Both the position numbers and the translations under genes were made by a program. Under the pieces are notes generated by a model. It was given only the letters and a program-made list of their open reading frames with translations. It made no database searches and had not been told where the DNA came from. Shown here one piece after another: positions 11,402-49,992 of a stretch of DNA of 64,000 nucleotides; position 1 is the first letter of the stretch, and the number at the start of each line of letters is the position of its first letter. The stretch is from Flammeovirgaceae bacterium (GTDB taxonomy: Bacteria > Bacteroidota > Bacteroidia > Cytophagales > Cyclobacteriaceae): assembly GCA_021299455.1 (NCBI GenBank), contig JAJTGQ010000045.1:1-64000 (forward strand), read 5' to 3'.

Positions 11402-13411
11402 TCAAAACAATTTATTCAAAACAGCTTCGTCAGTCAAATAGGTAGAAGTCACTTGCAAACTTGGATTTTGCTGCTGTGCACGTGCGATACTTGTTAATGC
11501 CCCGGTATTTCGCGCCCAAGCTCTTCGCGCAATTCCATTGTTCACGTCAAAATGCAACATGCTTTTCAATTTTCGATCTGCCTCTGAAGAACCATCCAAC
11601 AACATTCCAAACCCTCCGTTGATCACCTCTCCCCACCCAACGCCACCACCATTGTGTATGGAAACCCAAGTAGCCCCTCGGAACGAATCACCTATCACAT
11701 TGTGAATAGCCATATCTGCCGTGAAACGAGAGCCATCGTAAATATTGGACGTCTCACGATAGGGACTATCTGTACCGGACACATCGTGATGATCGCGCCC
11801 CAAAATAACAGGGCCAATTTTGCCTTGCGCAACGGCTTCATTAAAGGCAGCCGCAATTTTTATTCGCCCCTCGGCATCGGCATACAGTATTCTCGCTTTT
11901 GAACCAACCACCAGGTTGTTCGCTTTCGCAGCACGTATCCAATCAATGTTATCTTTTAGTTGTGATTGAATCTCATCGGGAGCTGAAACAACAATTTGAG
12001 AAAGTATTTCTGCGGCTAGTGCATCAGTATAATCTAAATCTTCTTGCTTACCTGAAGCACAAACCCAGCGAAACGGCCCGAAGCCATAATCAAAACACAT
12101 GGGGCCCATAATATCCTGTACATATGACGGGTACTTAAAGTCAACCCCATTGCTTGCCATTACATCTGCTCCCGCTCTGGATGCTTCCAAAAGAAATGCA
12201 TTTCCGTAATCGAAAAAATAAGTACCGCGAGATGCGTGGGTGTTAATTGCTTGTGCTTGCTTTCGAAGTGAGTCTTGAACTTTAACTTTAAACAGCTCGG
12301 GGTTCTCAACCATCAACCGATTAGAATCTTCAAAACTCACTCCTGCGGGATAGTATCCACCAGCCCAAGGATTGTGCAAAGATGTCTGGTCAGAGCCGAG
12401 GTCGACAAATATTTCTTCTGCTGCAAGCTTTTGCCACACGTCAACAATGTTGCCCTGAAATGCAATCGAAACAATTTCCTTTTTTGATTTTGCTGCGCGA
12501 ATCCGCTGACACAAAGTGTTGAGATCGCTAACCACTTCATCTACCCACCCTTGCTGAAGTCTTTTTTGCGTGGCAGCTTCGTTTATTTCGGCTACTACCG
12601 TGATGCAACCGGCAATGTTCCCCGCTTTGGGTTGGGCGCCACTCATCCCGCCTAGGCCTGAGGTTAAAAAAAGTTTGCCGGCAAGCCCTTCACCTTTTTT
12701 TGAAATCCTCCGACCCGCGTTCAAAATGGTAATGTTTGTGCCATGCACAATCCCCTGAGGCCCAATGTACATATAGCTGCCTGCCGTCATCTGACCGTAC
12801 TGGGTTACTCCCAATGCATTGAACCTTTCCCAATCGTCCGGCTTCGAATAATTTGGAATCATCATCCCATTGGTAACAACTACTCGCGGAGCTTCTTTCG
12901 AAGAAGGAAACAAACCCATCGGATGCCCCGAATAAATGTGCAACGTTTGATCCTCATTCATCGTGGCCAGATACTTCATCGTAAGTAAGTACTGCGCCCA
13001 GTTTTGAAAAACTGCTCCATTGCCCCCATAGGTAATCAACTCGTGAGGATGCTGTGCAACACGAGGATCTAAATTGTTTTGAATCATTAACTGGATTGCA
13101 CCGCCTTGCATACATTGGTAAGGATAGTCTTCAATACCCCTCGCCCTCATTTCATACTTCGGGCGCAACCGATACATATAGATCCGCCCAAATTTCTGTA
13201 GTTCATCATAAAACTCGGGTGCCAACACTTCATGATGACGAGGATGAAAATAGCGAAGAGCGTTGCTAATCGCCAGACGTTTTTCTTCTTGTGTAAGAAT
13301 GTTTTTTCGCCTTGGCGCATGACTCACCCCATTGTCGAACTCACTTGGCGAGGGTAATACATCAGGTATCCCCTCAAGAATTTGCTCCCTAAAAATTTCT
13401 GTCTTTGCCAT
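11402..13411 (-). CDS. hutU: Urocanate hydratase (long Bacteroidota form)
   Basis: 669 aa. The enzyme converts urocanate to 4-imidazolone-5-propanoate with tightly bound NAD+, the second step of histidine degradation. Visible blocks are YGGNGAVFQNWAQY, IYSGHPMGLFPS, TAGSYMYIGPQGIVHGT, LGSDQTSLHNPW, FGPFRWVC and a C-terminal HNGGGVGWGEVINGGFG. It is about 110 residues longer than the Pseudomonas/Bacillus type (about 555), as in other Bacteroidota. No hutH, hutI or hutG is in the window. It sits in a close run with a patatin (20 bp upstream) and an acyltransferase (1 bp downstream), an unexpected setting for this pathway. Confidence 0.95.
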   Translation of the reverse strand: MAKTEIFREQILEGIPDVLPSPSEFDNGVSHAPRRKNILTQEEKRLAISNALRYFHPRHHEVLAPEFYDELQKFGRIYMYRLRPKYEMRARGIEDYPYQCMQGGAIQLMIQNNLDPRVAQHPHELITYGGNGAVFQNWAQYLLTMKYLATMNEDQTLHIYSGHPMGLFPSSKEAPRVVVTNGMMIPNYSKPDDWERFNALGVTQYGQMTAGSYMYIGPQGIVHGTNITILNAGRRISKKGEGLAGKLFLTSGLGGMSGAQPKAGNIAGCITVVAEINEAATQKRLQQGWVDEVVSDLNTLCQRIRAAKSKKEIVSIAFQGNIVDVWQKLAAEEIFVDLGSDQTSLHNPWAGGYYPAGVSFEDSNRLMVENPELFKVKVQDSLRKQAQAINTHASRGTYFFDYGNAFLLEASRAGADVMASNGVDFKYPSYVQDIMGPMCFDYGFGPFRWVCASGKQEDLDYTDALAAEILSQIVVSAPDEIQSQLKDNIDWIRAAKANNLVVGSKARILYADAEGRIKIAAAFNEAVAQGKIGPVILGRDHHDVSGTDSPYRETSNIYDGSRFTADMAIHNVIGDSFRGATWVSIHNGGGVGWGEVINGGFGMLLDGSSEADRKLKSMLHFDVNNGIARRAWARNTGALTSIARAQQQNPSLQVTSTYLTDEAVLNKLF

Positions 13412-15921: not shown

Positions 15922-16872
15922 CTACTCTTTTACTACGCCCATCGCGCAAAATTTATCGATACGCTGATTAACTCGTTCTTGGGCGGAAAGCTTCGATAAC
16001 TCTTTGTAGTTTTCTATAATGATTCTCTTTATCTCAGTTGCCATCGCCTTGACATCGGTATGTGCTCCCCCCAAAGGCTCCTTCACTATACCATCTATCA
16101 ATTTATTTTGTAACATGTCCTTGGCTGTTAGTTTGAGCACTTCAGCAGCTTGCTCTTTATAATCCCAGCTACGCCACAAAATAGACGAACAAGATTCTGG
16201 CGAGATCACTGAATACCAGGTGTTCTCTAACATAAGGACACGATCTCCAATGGCTATGCCCAACGCGCCTCCGGAGGCCCCCTCACCGATAATGATGCAA
16301 ATCACTGGAACCTTTAACATGAACATCTCTTTGAGGTTGCGCGCAATTGCTTCGCCTTGTCCCCGCTCCTCGGCTTCTAAACCTGGAAACGCCCCAGGTG
16401 TATCAATAAAAGTGACAATTGGCTTATTGAACTTTTCCGCCATTTTCATCAGGCGAAGTGCCTTACGGTAGCCTTCTGGGTTAGCCATGCCAAAGTTACG
16501 CATCTGGCGTTGTTTCGTGTTCCTACCTTTCTGCTGGCCAATGATCATAAAGGTCTGACCTTCGATTGTCCCCAGGCCTCCAATCATTGCCTTATCATCA
16601 CCAACATTTCGATCACCATGGAGCTCAATGAAATCCGTGGTGATCTCGTAGATATAGTCTTGAGTATAAGGGCGATCAGGATGGCGGGATAGCTGAACTC
16701 GCTGCCAACCTGTTAGGTTTTCAAAGGTTTCCTTCTTCAATTCAGTTATCTTATTGTCTAACGCTTGTATGGCTTTGGTAACGTTTTCATCGCTATCGTC
16801 TGAGAGTTGCTTCATGTCTGCCAATTTACTTTCCAATTCAGCGATAGGTTTTTCAAACTCCAATAGATTCAT
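15922..16872 (-). CDS. accA: Acetyl-CoA carboxylase carboxyltransferase subunit alpha
   Basis: 316 aa. With AccD it transfers the carboxyl group from biotin to acetyl-CoA to make malonyl-CoA for fatty-acid synthesis. Recognisable blocks are the N-terminal [50 protein letters not shown], the oxyanion region [15 protein letters not shown] and YSVISPE. Length is normal. A -7 element lies 33 bp upstream. It is monocistronic here; accD, accB and accC are not in the window. Confidence 0.97.
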
Positions 16873-17092: not shown

Positions 17093-18985
17093 ATGACTAT
17101 CAATAAGTACTTCATAATTGATTTTGACAGCACCTTCACAAAAGTGGAAGCATTTGACGTGTTAGCAGAGATCATCGTAAAAGAGCACCCCAATAGTGAG
17201 GACATAAAGAGGCAGATTTTTGAAATCACCAACTTGGGAATGGAGGGGAAAATTTCCTTGCGTGAGTCTATTGAAAAACGGCTTGATATTTTGCAGCCTG
17301 AAAAAAGGCATCTCGCGCCATTGATCAAACAACTGAAGCTAGTTGTTTCCGAATCCTTCAAACGCAACAAAGAATTTTTTACTACTTACGCTGAAAATAT
17401 TTACATCATTTCCAATGGTTTCCGCGAGTTCATCGAACCCGTTGTCACGGAATTTGGGATTAAGTCAGAAAATATTTTAGCTAACGAATTTATATTTGAT
17501 GAGTTAGAAAAAGTAATTGGATTTGATCTCAATAATCCGTTATCGGCCAATAATGGAAAAGTTGAACAACTTAAAAGACTCAACTTAAATGGAGATGTAT
17601 ATGTAATTGGCGATGGCTATACCGATTATGAGATTAAACATGCCGGCCTGGCAAATAAGTTCTTTGCCTTTACCGAAAACATTGAGCGGGAAAGCGTTCT
17701 CAGCAAGGCCGACCACGTTACCCCTAGTCTGGACGAATTTTTATATTTGAATAAATTGAATACAACCATCTCCTACCCAAAAAATCGCATCAACGTACTC
17801 CTGCTGGAAAACGTTCATCCTGTCGCACTTGAGCTGATGAAAGCGGAGGGATTTAATGTCGAGACCTACCCAGCCGGGTTGGATGAAGACGAGCTATGCG
17901 AGAAAATAAAAAACGTTTCCGTGTTGGGCATTCGATCAAAAACCCAGGTTACAGCTAAAGTCTTAGAAAACGCAAACCGGCTAATGGTCATTGGTGCATT
18001 CTGCATTGGCACCAATCAAATAGATTTGAAAGCGGCTACTAAAAAAGGAGTGGCTGTGTTCAACGCGCCATTTAGTAATACCCGATCAGTGGTAGAACTA
18101 GCTATTGCCGAAATGATTTTATTGATGCGTGGCATCATTGACAAATCCACAAAAATGCACGAGGGAAAGTGGGATAAATCGGCCAAGGGTAGTTTTGAAA
18201 TTCGTGGAAAAAAACTGGGCATTATTGGTTATGGAAACATTGGTGCGCAGCTGTCTGTAATAGCTGAAAATCTGGGAATGAAGATTTACTATTATGACAA
18301 AGAAGAGAAATTAGCATTAGGAAATGCAACCAAGTGTAAGTCGCTGAAGGATCTTTTGGCGTTGGCTGATGTCATTACGCTTCACGTAGACGGAAAAGAA
18401 TCGAATGCTAATTTAATTGGAGCCGCTGAATTCAAAGTGATGAAGAAGGGCGTGATTTTTCTGAATCTCAGCCGTGGCCATGTGGTGGATGTGAAAGCGC
18501 TAAGGGAAAGCATCTTAAATGGTACTGTTGCCGGCTGTTCAGTGGATGTTTTCCCCTATGAACCCATTAGCAACGATGAAGAGTTTATATCTGAATTGAG
18601 AGGGCTTCCAAATACTATCCTTACCCCACATATTGGCGGAAGTACTTCTGAAGCGCAGGAGAACATTGGTAACTTTGTTCCTGGAAAAATGATGGACTAC
18701 ATCAACACGGGAAGCACCAGCAACAGTGTAAACTTCCCCAACCTTACATTACCCATTTTAGAGAATGCGCATCGCTTGATTCATATCCATAACAACGTAC
18801 CAGGTATTCTGGCTAAAATCAACCATATCCTTGCCGACAATGGAGTCAACATTGTGGGGCAATATTTAAAAACGAACGAGCAAATCGGATACGTAATCAC
18901 CGACATCAATAAAGAATACAACAAAGAAATGATTAAAGAGATGCGAGCGATCGAGAATACGATCAAATTCAGAGTCTTGTACTAA
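17093..18985 (+). CDS. Fused phosphoserine phosphatase (HAD) and D-3-phosphoglycerate dehydrogenase with ACT domain
   Basis: 630 aa from ATG 17093 (a TTG at 17063 is less likely). Residues 1-225 are a HAD phosphatase with all four motifs: DFDST (Asp10, Asp12), SNG (107-109), Lys156 and GDGYTD (173-178). Residues 230-545 are 3-phosphoglycerate dehydrogenase with GxGxxG (379-384) and catalytic Arg461, Glu490 and His513. Residues 560-630 are an ACT domain (HNNVPGILAKIN) that may bind serine. One chain would thus carry the first (SerA) and last (SerB) steps of serine synthesis. The middle step may be supplied by the class-V aminotransferase gene 400 bp downstream. Confidence 0.93.
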   Translation: MTINKYFIIDFDSTFTKVEAFDVLAEIIVKEHPNSEDIKRQIFEITNLGMEGKISLRESIEKRLDILQPEKRHLAPLIKQLKLVVSESFKRNKEFFTTYAENIYIISNGFREFIEPVVTEFGIKSENILANEFIFDELEKVIGFDLNNPLSANNGKVEQLKRLNLNGDVYVIGDGYTDYEIKHAGLANKFFAFTENIERESVLSKADHVTPSLDEFLYLNKLNTTISYPKNRINVLLLENVHPVALELMKAEGFNVETYPAGLDEDELCEKIKNVSVLGIRSKTQVTAKVLENANRLMVIGAFCIGTNQIDLKAATKKGVAVFNAPFSNTRSVVELAIAEMILLMRGIIDKSTKMHEGKWDKSAKGSFEIRGKKLGIIGYGNIGAQLSVIAENLGMKIYYYDKEEKLALGNATKCKSLKDLLALADVITLHVDGKESNANLIGAAEFKVMKKGVIFLNLSRGHVVDVKALRESILNGTVAGCSVDVFPYEPISNDEEFISELRGLPNTILTPHIGGSTSEAQENIGNFVPGKMMDYINTGSTSNSVNFPNLTLPILENAHRLIHIHNNVPGILAKINHILADNGVNIVGQYLKTNEQIGYVITDINKEYNKEMIKEMRAIENTIKFRVLY

Positions 18986-19386
18986 GTTAAAAAAATAAAA
19001 CCCACTGGATTTGGTGGTGGTTTCTGAACCCCATAAATGACAAGTTTTGGGCTGCTATCTGGTCGCGATCTTCCACTGTTAACCTGCTTTTTGGGCGAGG
19101 TCCGTTTTACACGGATGAGGCCTGATTTTGTCCGACAGCTTTACCCGGTATTGTATAATTGTTAGGTTCAGCAAACGTGTCCCAAATCCAAGTGGGAATT
19201 ATGATTCAAAACTACAAAAATGTTCTTCGTTTCTCAATAAACTCATCAATTCTATTTTCTTCAATAGCATTTCTGCCTCCCAACCGATAGTGAAGTTAGT
19301 TGTGTTCAAATTTTAAGTCGAATTAAGAAGATAAATGATGATTGTCAGTGTGATTGATTTTAACTTGCAGTCTCAATCAGGTGATC
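18986..19386. other. 400-bp spacer, unusual composition in its centre
   Basis: No convincing gene. The central part (about 19010-19240) is noticeably less AT-rich than other spacers here and contains a small hairpin TCCGT-N5-ACGGA (19101-19115). A 62-codon frame at 19128-19316 shows no recognisable product and no start signal. It may be a gene relic or a structured non-coding element. The last 100 bp resemble an ordinary AT-rich leader. Confidence 0.4.
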
Positions 19387-20460
19387 ATGAATATCAATCT
19401 CACTCCCGGGCCATCACAACTTTTCTATACCGTTCCAGATCACGCACGCCATGCCTTCAAGGAGGGAATTACTTCTATTTCTCATCGTAGCAAAACATTT
19501 GAATCTTATTTTCAGAAAGCAACTGAAGGGCTGAAAGAATTGTTGGGTATTCCAACAGAGTACTTTATCTTCTTTACCGGCTCAGCAACTGAAGTCTGGG
19601 AAAAATCAATTCAAAACTTGGTCGAGAACTCTTCCATGCACCTTGTGAACGGTGCCTTTTCAAACCGCTATTTTGAAATTGCCAAGCAATTGGGAAAGCA
19701 CGCCCAGAAAATGGATGCTCCTCTTGGGCAAAACTTTTCATCGATACCCATTACCAACTATGGCACAGAACTAATTGCGATCACTCAAAATGAAACAAGT
19801 ACGGGAGTATCACTAACCAATGACTTCATTCGAGAGGTACGAGAAAAAAACAGTGAAGCGCTAATTGTTGTGGATGCCGTTTCTTCTATGCCCTACCCCG
19901 CGTTGGATTATTCTCAAATAGATTCCGCTTTTTTCTCTGTCCAAAAAGGATTTGGTATGCCTGCAGGATTAGGCGTGTGGGCTGTCAATCCTAGATGCAT
20001 CGAAAAGGCAGAATCACTATTGGCAAGAGGCTTTTCCATTGGGTCATATCACAATCTCCCCACGCTGCTTTTGAATGCACTCAAAAACCAAACGACCGAA
20101 ACGCCAAACGTGCTCGGCATCTACTTACTGAGTTGTGTAGTGGAGGATTTCCTTCGAATTGGCATCAAAAAGATTCGTCAGGAGACAGATTACAAAGCAG
20201 CCATCTTATACCAAGCACTAAAGGCTCATCCATTGATGTCTCCTTTTGTAAAAGATGAGTCAGCGCAGTCTAAAACAGTGATAGTGGCTGATTGCGGTGA
20301 ACATTCAGTTCGAATCAGTAACTATTTATCTGAGCACGGCTTTAACCCGGGAGAAGGCTACGGAGAGAAAAAGAAATCACAATTGCGTTTCGCCAATTTC
20401 CCGGCACACTCCAAAGAACAGTATGAACGAATGGTTGACCTGATTGAGAACCTAAGATAG
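19387..20460 (+). CDS. serC: Class-V aminotransferase, probable phosphoserine aminotransferase (SerC type)
   Basis: 357 aa from ATG 19387, giving NLTPGPSQL as usual for the fold. PLP enzyme with SHRSKTFESYF near residue 34, FTGSATEVWE, an Asp-containing VVDAVSS block and the likely PLP-lysine in FFSVQKGFGMPAG. The C-terminus has QLRFANFPAHS, comparable to the substrate-binding Arg region of PSAT. The gene directly follows the SerB-SerA fusion, which supports conversion of 3-phosphohydroxypyruvate to phosphoserine. Other class-V transaminases look similar, so the assignment leans on context. Confidence 0.78.
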   Translation: MNINLTPGPSQLFYTVPDHARHAFKEGITSISHRSKTFESYFQKATEGLKELLGIPTEYFIFFTGSATEVWEKSIQNLVENSSMHLVNGAFSNRYFEIAKQLGKHAQKMDAPLGQNFSSIPITNYGTELIAITQNETSTGVSLTNDFIREVREKNSEALIVVDAVSSMPYPALDYSQIDSAFFSVQKGFGMPAGLGVWAVNPRCIEKAESLLARGFSIGSYHNLPTLLLNALKNQTTETPNVLGIYLLSCVVEDFLRIGIKKIRQETDYKAAILYQALKAHPLMSPFVKDESAQSKTVIVADCGEHSVRISNYLSEHGFNPGEGYGEKKKSQLRFANFPAHSKEQYERMVDLIENLR

Positions 20461-47538: not shown

Positions 47539-49992
47539 TCAGTTACTATAATTTCCAATTCTAATTACGTCTGCAAAAACACCTGCTGCCGTCACCTCAG
47601 CTCCGGCACCCGGTCCGCGAATTACCATCGGTCTTTCTTTATAGCGCTCAGTCGTGAGTAAGATAATGTTATCGCTCCCCGCTAGCGAATAGAACGGATG
47701 AGAAGTTCCAACCGAGGCCAATGACACGCTTGCCTTCCCTCCTTCTATTATTGCCATATACCGTAACTTCTGGTTATTGTTCTGAGCTTGATCTCTCAAT
47801 TTATCAAAGTCCAAATTGAAAGCAGATAGCTGATTGAGAAATTCCTCCACCTTCATTTCCCCTTTACACTTTTCAGGTACCAGGTTTTCAACTTTTATAT
47901 CTTTTAGCTCGAGATCAAGACCAATTTCACGCGCTAAAATCAGCGCTTTACGAGCTACATCCATTCCATTCAAATCATCTCGAGGATCCGGCTCTGTAAA
48001 TCCTTTTTCTTTTGCCTCTTTCACAATGTCGCTAAACTGCTTTCCCTCCACAAAAGAACTAAAGATGAAATTCAAGGTTCCACTTAAGACGGCTTCAATG
48101 CGTAGCGCTTTATCACCACTGAGTAACAAGTCGTTTAGCGTGTTGATGACGGGCAAGCCAGCACCCACATTCGTTTCATACAAAAACTTAACTCCACGCC
48201 TGGCTGTTGTTGATTTTAATTTTTTATATCGCTCCAGAGAACCTGAATTTGCTTTCTTATTGGGAGTTACAATAGAAATGTTTGCAGAAAGTATTCGATC
48301 ATAAAAACCAGCCACTTCTTCGCTAGACGTGCAATCCACAAAAATACTGTTAGACAAATTGAAACTTACCATCCTTTCAAAGTATGATGACAACGTCATC
48401 GCTTCACCTTCCTCGATCATCCTATCCACGGCATGATTCAATTGAATTCCATCTTCATTGAAGAGCATTTTCTTGCTGTTGGCAACCCCAACCAAGTTAA
48501 CTTCCAAATGATTCTGCGAAGCCAACTTTGCAAATTGTTGATCCATCATTTTCACTAACTCCTTTCCAATCAAACCGGTACCCACTAAAAAAACATTCAA
48601 CAGCTTTCGATCAGATAGGAAGAAAGCTTCGTGTAATACGTTCAACGCTTTGGATGTATCAGCCTGCCGGATTACAACTGAAATGTTTAATTCAGAAGAA
48701 CCCTGCGCAATTGCATGGACATTCACGCCTGCTTTACCAAGTGCACTAAACATGCGACCACTGGTGCCCGGATTATGCTTCATACCTTCTCCCACGATAG
48801 CTACAATCGTCAATTCATTTTCCATGGCAATGGAGTCCATTTCACCATTTAAAATCTCGTAATAGAATTCCTTTTCTATGGCCGCTTTTGCCTGTATAGC
48901 AAGGCCGCTTTCAATAGCAAAACAAATCGAATGCTCAGAGGATGCTTGACTGATTAAGATCACGTTAATTTTTTCTTTGGCCAGCGTACCGAACAATCGC
49001 ATAGACACACCCACAACACCTTGTAGCCCACTTCCCTGCACGTTGAACAAACTGACGTGCCCCATCGAAGAGACTCCTTTAATGATTAGTGACTTTCCAT
49101 TTGCATTCGCACTAATAACAGAACCTGGGAAAGTAGGATTGAATGTGTTTTTGATCCAGATTGGAATCTTCTTGCCCATAGCTGGTTGCATGGTGGCTGG
49201 AAAGATCACCTTGGCGCCAAAATGAGACAGCTCCATCGCTTCCTCGTAAGTCATTTCCTTTACAGTAAATGCCTTCTTCACCTTGCGTGGATCGGCCGTC
49301 ATCATTCCATCCACATCGGTCCATATTTCTAACGAGGTGGCATCTAAGGCCGCAGCGAAAATAGCTGCCGTATAATCTGATCCGCTTCTTCCTATGGTGG
49401 TCGTTTCACCTGAAGTGGATGATCCTATAAAACCGGTGACCACTTGGAGATCAACATGGCTTTTAAAGTAATCTTGAATCAGTTGATTCGTGGTTTTAAA
49501 ATCAATTTTAGCATTACCAAAATTACTGTCAGTTCTAACCACAGAACGAGCATCTAAAAATTCAGCCTTTATACCTTGTCCATTAATCGCCTCTGCAATA
49601 ATGTAGGCGGAAAGTCGCTCTCCAAAACTCATGATATAATCCAATGAGCGTAATGTTCTTTCTTTCACCAAAAAAATACCATGAAGAATGTCTTCCAATT
49701 CATTGATGGTGAATTTTACCTGGGCAATCACGCTACTCTGTTTCTGAATATCGACTAACTCGCGTACTGCTTCCAAATGCCTTTTTTCCAATTGTTCCAA
49801 CTCGATCTTGTATCCAACATCTCCTGCAAGAGCTTTTGCACTAAGTTGAATGAGTGAATCCGTGACTCCGCCAAATGCGGAAAACACAACCGCAACCTTT
49901 TCTTGTTTTACACAGGGAAACAGAATTTCAATTACAGATTTTATCCGTTCAGGATGAGCGACTGAGGAGCCACCGAATTTTAAGACTTTCAT
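47539..49992 (-). CDS. thrA: Bifunctional aspartate kinase / homoserine dehydrogenase
   Basis: 817 aa fusion catalysing the first and third steps from aspartate to homoserine. The N-terminal kinase begins KVLKFGGSSVAHPERI and includes TTIGRSGSDYTAAIFAA and WTDVDGMMTADPR. A central ACT pair (about 315-460, with VSMRLFGTLA and RMFSALGKAGVNVHAIAQ) is the likely site for threonine feedback. The C-terminal dehydrogenase has NVFLVGTGLIGKELV (about 463-477), NKKAN and the catalytic Lys region GFTEPDPRDDLNG. First gene of thrABC. No leader peptide rich in threonine codons was seen upstream. Confidence 0.97.
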   Translation of the reverse strand: MKVLKFGGSSVAHPERIKSVIEILFPCVKQEKVAVVFSAFGGVTDSLIQLSAKALAGDVGYKIELEQLEKRHLEAVRELVDIQKQSSVIAQVKFTINELEDILHGIFLVKERTLRSLDYIMSFGERLSAYIIAEAINGQGIKAEFLDARSVVRTDSNFGNAKIDFKTTNQLIQDYFKSHVDLQVVTGFIGSSTSGETTTIGRSGSDYTAAIFAAALDATSLEIWTDVDGMMTADPRKVKKAFTVKEMTYEEAMELSHFGAKVIFPATMQPAMGKKIPIWIKNTFNPTFPGSVISANANGKSLIIKGVSSMGHVSLFNVQGSGLQGVVGVSMRLFGTLAKEKINVILISQASSEHSICFAIESGLAIQAKAAIEKEFYYEILNGEMDSIAMENELTIVAIVGEGMKHNPGTSGRMFSALGKAGVNVHAIAQGSSELNISVVIRQADTSKALNVLHEAFFLSDRKLLNVFLVGTGLIGKELVKMMDQQFAKLASQNHLEVNLVGVANSKKMLFNEDGIQLNHAVDRMIEEGEAMTLSSYFERMVSFNLSNSIFVDCTSSEEVAGFYDRILSANISIVTPNKKANSGSLERYKKLKSTTARRGVKFLYETNVGAGLPVINTLNDLLLSGDKALRIEAVLSGTLNFIFSSFVEGKQFSDIVKEAKEKGFTEPDPRDDLNGMDVARKALILAREIGLDLELKDIKVENLVPEKCKGEMKVEEFLNQLSAFNLDFDKLRDQAQNNNQKLRYMAIIEGGKASVSLASVGTSHPFYSLAGSDNIILLTTERYKERPMVIRGPGAGAEVTAAGVFADVIRIGNYSN

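Follow-up and report, generated by a model that had tools for sequence, protein, structure and literature searches.

A SerB-SerA fusion protein of Bacteroidota and the decay of its dehydrogenase part in relatives

We analysed a stretch of 64,000 nucleotides from a Flammeovirgaceae bacterium (positions 1 to 64,000 of contig JAJTGQ010000045.1, assembly GCA_021299455.1; hereafter the window), in which one gene joins a phosphoserine-phosphatase-like part (SerB) to a phosphoglycerate dehydrogenase (PGDH; SerA). The gene occupies 17093–18985 on the plus strand, starts with ATG and encodes 630 amino acids (aa) with no internal stop; an initial annotation made from the sequence alone had given its coordinates and size correctly. 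Residues 1–222 (17093–17758) form a phosphoserine-phosphatase-like domain of the HAD-IB type, assigned by PF12710 and by a fold model, with a match to TIGR00338 below its cut-off; its key residues are D10, D12, E19, R63, S107, K156, D174 and D178. There follow the junction ISYPKNRI (residues 226–233, 17768–17791), picked out by the residue counts given below, the first segment of the PGDH substrate-binding domain (residues 235–333, 17795–18091), the PGDH NAD-binding domain (residues 339–515, 18107–18637; R461, E490, H513) and an ACT domain (residues 562–625, 18776–18967; H566, N568, N586). All four Pfam assignments are above cut-off: PF12710 (HAD) at residues 9–179, PF00389 at 235–547, PF02826 at 339–515 and PF22629 (ACT) at 562–625. 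After an intergenic gap of 401 bp (18986–19386), which holds a weak terminator-like hairpin at 19002–19017, the same strand encodes a diverged SerC-type (class V) aminotransferase of 357 aa (19387–20460), assigned by PF00266, the solved structure 3ffr and TIGR01364.

The PGDH part is of the Escherichia coli type and comprises residues 226–630, i.e., the C-terminal 405 residues. With the PGDH equivalog model NF008759 the fusion reaches 650.6 bits, above the cut-off of 404, which makes it a member of that family, and its PGDH part shows 51% identity with E. coli SerA across 401 residues. The AlphaFold2 model of the whole fusion has a mean pLDDT of 90.4, and its residues 229–630 superpose on E. 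coli SerA (1psd) with Z 46.9 and 3.4 Å over 401 residues. When E. coli numbering is mapped through the alignment, R461, E490 and H513 correspond to R240, E269 and H292, which we take to be the catalytic triad; R281, S282 and N329 correspond to R60, S61 and N108, presumably the site of the substrate 3-phosphoglycerate; and H566, N568 and N586 of the ACT domain correspond to H344, N346 and N364, which we take to be the serine-contact residues. All of these are present.

For the HAD part, the best phosphatase model is TIGR00338 (serB), whose curated cut-off is 144.15 bits; the whole protein reaches 53.3 bits and the domain by itself 56.7 bits. Since these scores are below the cut-off, we have not filed the part as a TIGR00338 member. 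The HAD motif set (DxD, S/T, K and GDxxxD) is complete, with D10 and D12, S107, K156, and D174 and D178, and E19 and R63 align with E29 and R65 of human PSPH, presumably the glutamate and arginine that hold the substrate. Whole-protein fold searches were filled by PGDH and other 2-hydroxyacid dehydrogenases and were uninformative on the HAD part, and therefore residues 1–223 were modelled alone (pLDDT 94.4). This model matched 3kd3, which carries the name 'phosphoserine phosphohydrolase-like', with Z 27.4 and 2.1 Å over 213 residues, and human PSPH with Z 26.4 and 2.1 Å over 209–210 residues; every entry at ranks 1–19 (Z 27.4 to 21.4) is named phosphoserine phosphatase (PSP), and rank 20 is the algal PSP-GPDH fusion 6iuy (Z 21.0). 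The proposal of the initial annotation that a HAD phosphatase, a PGDH and an ACT domain are fused is thus confirmed by Pfam, by NF008759 and by complete catalytic motifs.

We denote genomes, loci and families by codes beginning with G, L and f, respectively. The full-length, one-frame fusion was found in 30 of the 39 genomes searched, its own included; in the others it was cut by contig ends (G006, G011), broken in frame (G019), present as two adjacent genes (G031) or represented by the SerA part alone (G035), and four genomes gave distant dehydrogenases only (G012, G025, G026, G037). A scan of named genomes, for which figures refer to the best 80 loci, gave all four parts at 72 of them, the other eight being six loci cut by contig ends, one split pair and one HAD part alone. 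The possibility of an assembly artefact was rejected, and we regard the fusion as real, because the intact one-frame architecture is conserved across genomes. A sample of 296 genomes of the phylum, 65 of which had no match, contained 20 full-length fusions, distributed as the 12 listed for the same order (own included), seven in family f19 and one in f58. Named carriers include Spirosoma, Dyadobacter, Emticicia, Algoriphagus, Belliella and Pontibacter as well as Maribacter, Arenibacter, Kordia and Cellulophaga; Echvi_2777 may be this fusion in Echinicola, no paper having been found for that tag. The fusion is old and widespread in this bacterial group, including named Cytophagales and Flavobacteriaceae.

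A few sequences carry labels from outside the phylum, among them two (L160 and L162) of the 72 loci with all four parts. Two contigs labelled Candidatus Roizmanbacteria hold a 605-aa fusion (L160:4565-6382), 46–65% identical to that of the window by domain, and a HAD part alone (L154:5118-5789), and represent either transfer from Bacteroidota or misplaced contigs. A 3.9-kb contig labelled Latescibacterota (L162:432-2339) carries a fusion that stands beside Fulvivirga in the tree, and is probably misbinned.

The initial annotation had proposed to check whether a separate serB is missing. In the own genome (3.9 Mb in 176 contigs, 96.5% complete), a search with TIGR00338 found no separate SerB-like gene: the fusion was the top match at 56.7 bits, the next four matches reached at most 33.6 bits and lay in frames of 831–917 aa, a size that suggests P-type ATPases, and the rest reached at most 13.1 bits. 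A second copy was likewise not found there when the whole fusion was used as the query at E ≤ 10, with three candidates scored. In 30 genomes chosen to span the architectures, no serB above the TIGR00338 cut-off was found (0/30); the best match belonged to the fusion family in 22, and the other eight had no such match. A canonical separate serB was accordingly rejected as a candidate for the own genome and for these 30. Because the fusion does not reach the equivalog cut-off and its PGDH half is the best match, annotation pipelines may miss it, and this may explain why they report serB as missing in Bacteroidota.

The neighbouring aminotransferase scores 81.5 bits with PF00266, has as its best solved relative 3ffr (E 1.1e-99), a SerC by its depositors' naming, and is the sole TIGR01364 match in the own genome at E ≤ 0.01. 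It is below every NCBIfam SerC cut-off listed, the best being TIGR01366 with 130.9 against 401.65 bits; the SerC-type enzyme that had been named as the next gene is borne out by PF00266 and 3ffr in a diverged form. A diverged and apparently essential SerC, Echvi_1811, is described for Echinicola vietnamensis in the excerpted text of the GapMind study (PMC7311316). Seven terminator-like sites were counted in the scanned region against 3.7 expected from shuffles, and co-transcription of the two genes in the window is uncertain because of the 401-bp gap. Of 68 fusion loci with at least 4 kb of downstream sequence, 27 have a SerC relative like that of the window on the same strand, no more than 6 kb downstream. 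Broken down by family, for named fusion loci that extend 2 kb or more downstream, the proportions are 10 of 12 in Spirosomataceae, 8 of 10 in Cytophagaceae, 3 of 3 in Flammeovirgaceae, 2 of 5 in Cyclobacteriaceae and 1 of 20 in Flavobacteriaceae. Gaps between fusion and SerC begin at −4 bp and are −4 to 130 bp in several families. The adjacency, seen at 27 of 68 loci, thus varies between families from frequent to rare, and SerC is no fixed part of the system.

On the basis of these domain assignments and conserved residues, we consider it very probable that the 630-aa protein is a bifunctional PGDH/phosphoserine phosphatase with a serine-binding ACT domain and that its neighbour performs the second step of serine synthesis. 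The C-terminal 405 residues would oxidize 3-phosphoglycerate with NAD (step 1), as E. coli SerA does; the separate aminotransferase would perform step 2; the N-terminal 222 residues would dephosphorylate phosphoserine (step 3); and the ACT domain would bind serine, which would in turn restrain the phosphatase as well as the dehydrogenase. The two activities, the serine binding and the joint restraint of both enzymes by serine are what we infer for the intact protein. Since the fused steps 1 and 3 are not consecutive, the fusion would pass no intermediate between its own sites, and the channelling between fused domains that had been suggested at the outset is not supported: the PGDH product, phosphohydroxypyruvate, is not the substrate of the phosphatase, and the transamination belongs to another protein. 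A more likely benefit of the fusion than direct substrate channelling is that the enzymes of the first and the irreversible last step are held at a fixed ratio and share a sensor.

Relatives whose PGDH part has decayed bear on this reading. With an f16 relative as the query, 396 genomes of the class were searched, and 79 gave matches. Fusion-length frames (at least 627 aa) were present in 47, one genome (G427) was cut by a contig end, and 20 had frames of 424–501 aa, in which the match extended from query residue 1–12 to the last, 439; the rest were six genomes of f72 (frames of 600–618 aa), G365 of f96 (a 732-aa frame), G379 of f75 (two frames) and three of f73 in which the HAD part is its own frame. 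The short forms belong to f16 (18), f17 (one, G305) and f75 (one, G344), and are registered as loci L059–L066 and L079–L097 (f16 and G305) and L098 (f75), at 424–493 aa with uncurated start codons. In them the HAD part is followed by the first PGDH substrate-binding segment and then by the last 105 residues with the ACT domain, so that fusion residues of about 333–525, i.e., the NAD-binding domain, are missing. Another set is full-length and has lost PGDH catalytic residues: L107 and L113–L118 (f72), L127 (f96) and L101 (f82). In the f72 proteins the NAD-binding domain is still recognisable and the catalytic residues are gone.

Residues were counted in 154 distinct proteins from 165 distinct loci, leaving out six rows cut by contig ends, four HAD-only rows (of which L225 is also cut) and L072 of G019, which is probably a frameshift in a draft genome. 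Since a match to the fusion or to its HAD part was what admitted a protein, retention of the HAD part is partly built into the set. All eight HAD residues are present in 153 of the 154 proteins, the exception (L161) lying near a contig start with its start codon called too far downstream. The three serine-contact residues of the ACT domain are kept in 154/154, including every one of the 27 whose PGDH catalytic domain is dead or absent. A full PGDH triad occurs in 121 of 122 fusion proteins and in 5/5 split pairs, and in none of the six f72 proteins or the single f96 protein; the columns of the NAD domain are absent from all 20 short forms. In E. coli numbering, none of the 27 proteins retains R60 together with S61, and N108 is kept in 15 of the 20 short forms and in two of the six f72 proteins. 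The motif S-Y-P-K at the junction is found in 122/122 fusion proteins and in 27/27 proteins whose PGDH catalytic domain is dead or absent. L101 is the sole fusion without the full triad, Gly replacing both R240 and R60; its genome has a further PGDH-like gene in a 323-aa frame, and it may represent an early stage of PGDH decay.

The rows used for trees were thinned to 68 for a tree of the HAD plus ACT parts and to 51 for a SerA tree rooted with E. coli. On the former, the distribution of live and dead PGDH requires four changes. A common origin of all PGDH-dead forms was rejected, a single clade for them having a p value of 0.009 in the approximately unbiased test (p-AU). Grouping the two sets of short forms as one clade was borderline (p-AU 0.046), and therefore two separate losses of the NAD domain appear likely, though not firmly so. 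The PGDH part has thus decayed in four places of the tree while the HAD and ACT residues stay.

Genomes with decayed forms were examined for other dehydrogenases. All 11 of the f16 genomes tested have another PGDH-like gene, with its best match in a frame of 316–342 aa at 31–38% identity, and in G305 the best other PGDH-like match lies in a 389-aa frame. At the three f16 loci tested (L128, L129 and L131), a short, ACT-less PGDH-like gene adjoins a canonical SerC; the best model of the former is TIGR01327, below its cut-off, and the latter is above the TIGR01364 cut-off. At L133 (G344) the one neighbour tested gave no match. The six f72 genomes have other 2-hydroxyacid dehydrogenase genes at 27–34% identity, which need not be PGDH. 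Plausibly, steps 1 and 2 passed to a serC-serA pair, leaving the fusion with step 3 and the serine sensor.

That PGDH-dead proteins retain the serine-contact residues is the strongest argument at hand for a role of the ACT domain in phosphatase function. The pattern suggests that what remains of the PGDH/ACT module is still of use to the phosphatase, perhaps by sensing serine. The shared serine feedback supposed in the initial annotation is accordingly plausible and better supported than before, the ACT contacts surviving where PGDH is dead, while serine binding is not proven thereby. We give about even weight to the stronger proposal that the PGDH module has repeatedly been turned, by active-site decay or by clean loss of the inserted NAD-binding domain that spares the substrate-binding and ACT domains, into a non-catalytic, serine-sensing regulator of the phosphatase. 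If this is true, the ACT domain would let serine control the phosphatase step in the intact fusion as well, and one enzyme of the pathway would repeatedly have been converted into a regulatory component of another. In the decayed relatives, a natural experiment has taken apart the phosphatase, dehydrogenase and serine sensor of a single protein, so that the purpose of fusing non-consecutive enzymes becomes directly testable.

The alternative that survives best, which we hold to be possible and somewhat the less likely, is that the protein consists of two active enzymes with no joint regulation: the ACT domain would govern PGDH only, and its survival in PGDH-dead forms would reflect dimer assembly or slow decay. 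The ACT domains of E. coli SerA also make a subunit interface, and a retained ACT domain could serve assembly and not serine sensing. Against this alternative, the three serine-contact positions are kept in every protein with a dead or absent PGDH catalytic domain, in none of which R60 and S61 both remain; N108 is kept in 15 of 20 short forms. The three serine-contact residues are not obviously needed for plain assembly.

The history of the fusion was examined on the SerA tree, where all 36 fused rows and all four split rows fall in one clade with support of 99/92 (bootstrap unsettled), and eight free-standing SerA rows (f17, f35, f57 and f59) fall outside it. On both trees the split HAD/PGDH pairs of f73 stand apart from those of f8/Marinoscillum, and uniting them as a single clade is rejected on the tree of the HAD plus ACT parts (p-AU 0.0007); the best interpretation is that these pairs arose by fission of the fusion. 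Two HAD-less SerA rows, L049 (f35, G286) and L068 (f12, G035), lie inside the fusion clade with weakly supported placement, and may have lost the HAD part or received SerA by transfer.

Several observations, besides the possible assembly role of the ACT domain, weigh against a bifunctional, serine-sensing enzyme. The HAD score is far below the serB equivalog cut-off and, at 44.6 against 45 bits, just under that of the HAD-IB subfamily. The HAD part is dispensable in places, as the two HAD-less SerA rows inside the fusion clade indicate, and G035 has, besides its HAD-less SerA, one weak match to the serB model, in a 702-aa frame. The own genome, assembled in 176 contigs and 96.5% complete, has four matches to the PF00300 histidine-phosphatase family and may therefore encode a non-homologous phosphoserine phosphatase.

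These low scores and PF00300 matches would also suit a HAD part that acts on another phosphate, for example as a repair or overflow phosphatase for the substrate or product of PGDH, with another protein serving as the phosphoserine phosphatase. Precedents can be cited: in algae, a PSP-like HAD fused to a dehydrogenase works in glycerol synthesis, according to the excerpt of PMC7468427, and its structure 6iuy was among our matches; and some PSP-annotated genes have been proposed to be histidinol phosphatases (PMC5764234, in excerpt). We nevertheless regard this as improbable. The searches revealed no further SerB-like gene in the own genome and none above the cut-off in the 30 chosen genomes, the closest structural neighbours of the HAD model are phosphoserine phosphatases, and its substrate-contact residues align with those of human PSPH. 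The HAD part is not merely a helper of PGDH, because it is kept where PGDH is dead. A role as histidinol phosphatase is weakened by a HisB-type histidinol phosphatase, above its own cut-off, that is encoded separately in the own genome. A channelling complex in which the fusion and SerC hand intermediates along is hardly to be expected either: many Cytophagales have SerC next to the fusion, at times with frames that overlap or almost touch, but the fused activities are non-consecutive, no SerC was found within 6 kb downstream at 41 of the 68 loci, and in two branches the HAD part and the PGDH part are encoded by separate neighbouring genes.

Comparison with known systems places the fusion as follows. 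E. coli SerA, with one ACT domain (1psd/1yba), shares the domain order, triad, substrate-site and serine-contact residues and, unlike the fusion, has no phosphatase domain. The HAD-IB phosphoserine phosphatases (human PSPH, 3kd3 and the Methanocaldococcus jannaschii PSP) share the fold of the whole domain, the motifs and the two substrate contacts, but are 24–34% identical in structural alignments, whereas the HAD part of the fusion is below the TIGR00338 cut-off and joined to PGDH. The mycobacterial SerB2 (ACT-ACT-HAD; 5jlp/3p96) likewise has a PSP joined to ACT, its HAD matching with Z of about 22; its ACT domains presumably lie N-terminal of the HAD part, with no dehydrogenase between, and the aligned range 176–389 is consistent with this. 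The green-algal Dunaliella DsGPDH (6iuy) has, as in the fusion, an N-terminal PSP-like HAD and a C-terminal NAD-dependent dehydrogenase (PMC7468427, in excerpt), but the dehydrogenase family and the pathway are others and its two steps are consecutive. PGDH-PSAT fusions are described in oomycetes and brown algae in the excerpts of PMC5715807 and PMC2705460; they belong to the same pathway but join steps 1 and 2, not 1 and 3, and are eukaryotic. The GapMind table rows for Echinicola vietnamensis, as excerpted from PMC7311316, list no SerB gap, which would fit a fusion in that species. No description of a SerA-SerB or PGDH-PSP fusion, or of its decay, was found in the literature searched, which covered few subscription journals. 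The parts are best called known families, the fusion a widespread variant for which no description was found, and the PGDH decay the more surprising result.

Three further genes of the window, each on the minus strand, were noted. The next gene upstream of the fusion, in divergent orientation, is accA (15922–16872; TIGR00513 above cut-off). A urocanate hydratase (11402–13411; TIGR01228 above cut-off) has 669 aa, about 120 aa beyond the model length. A bifunctional aspartokinase/homoserine dehydrogenase (47539–49992; NF006959 above cut-off) is another amino-acid pathway fusion in the window, and is of the well-known ThrA kind.

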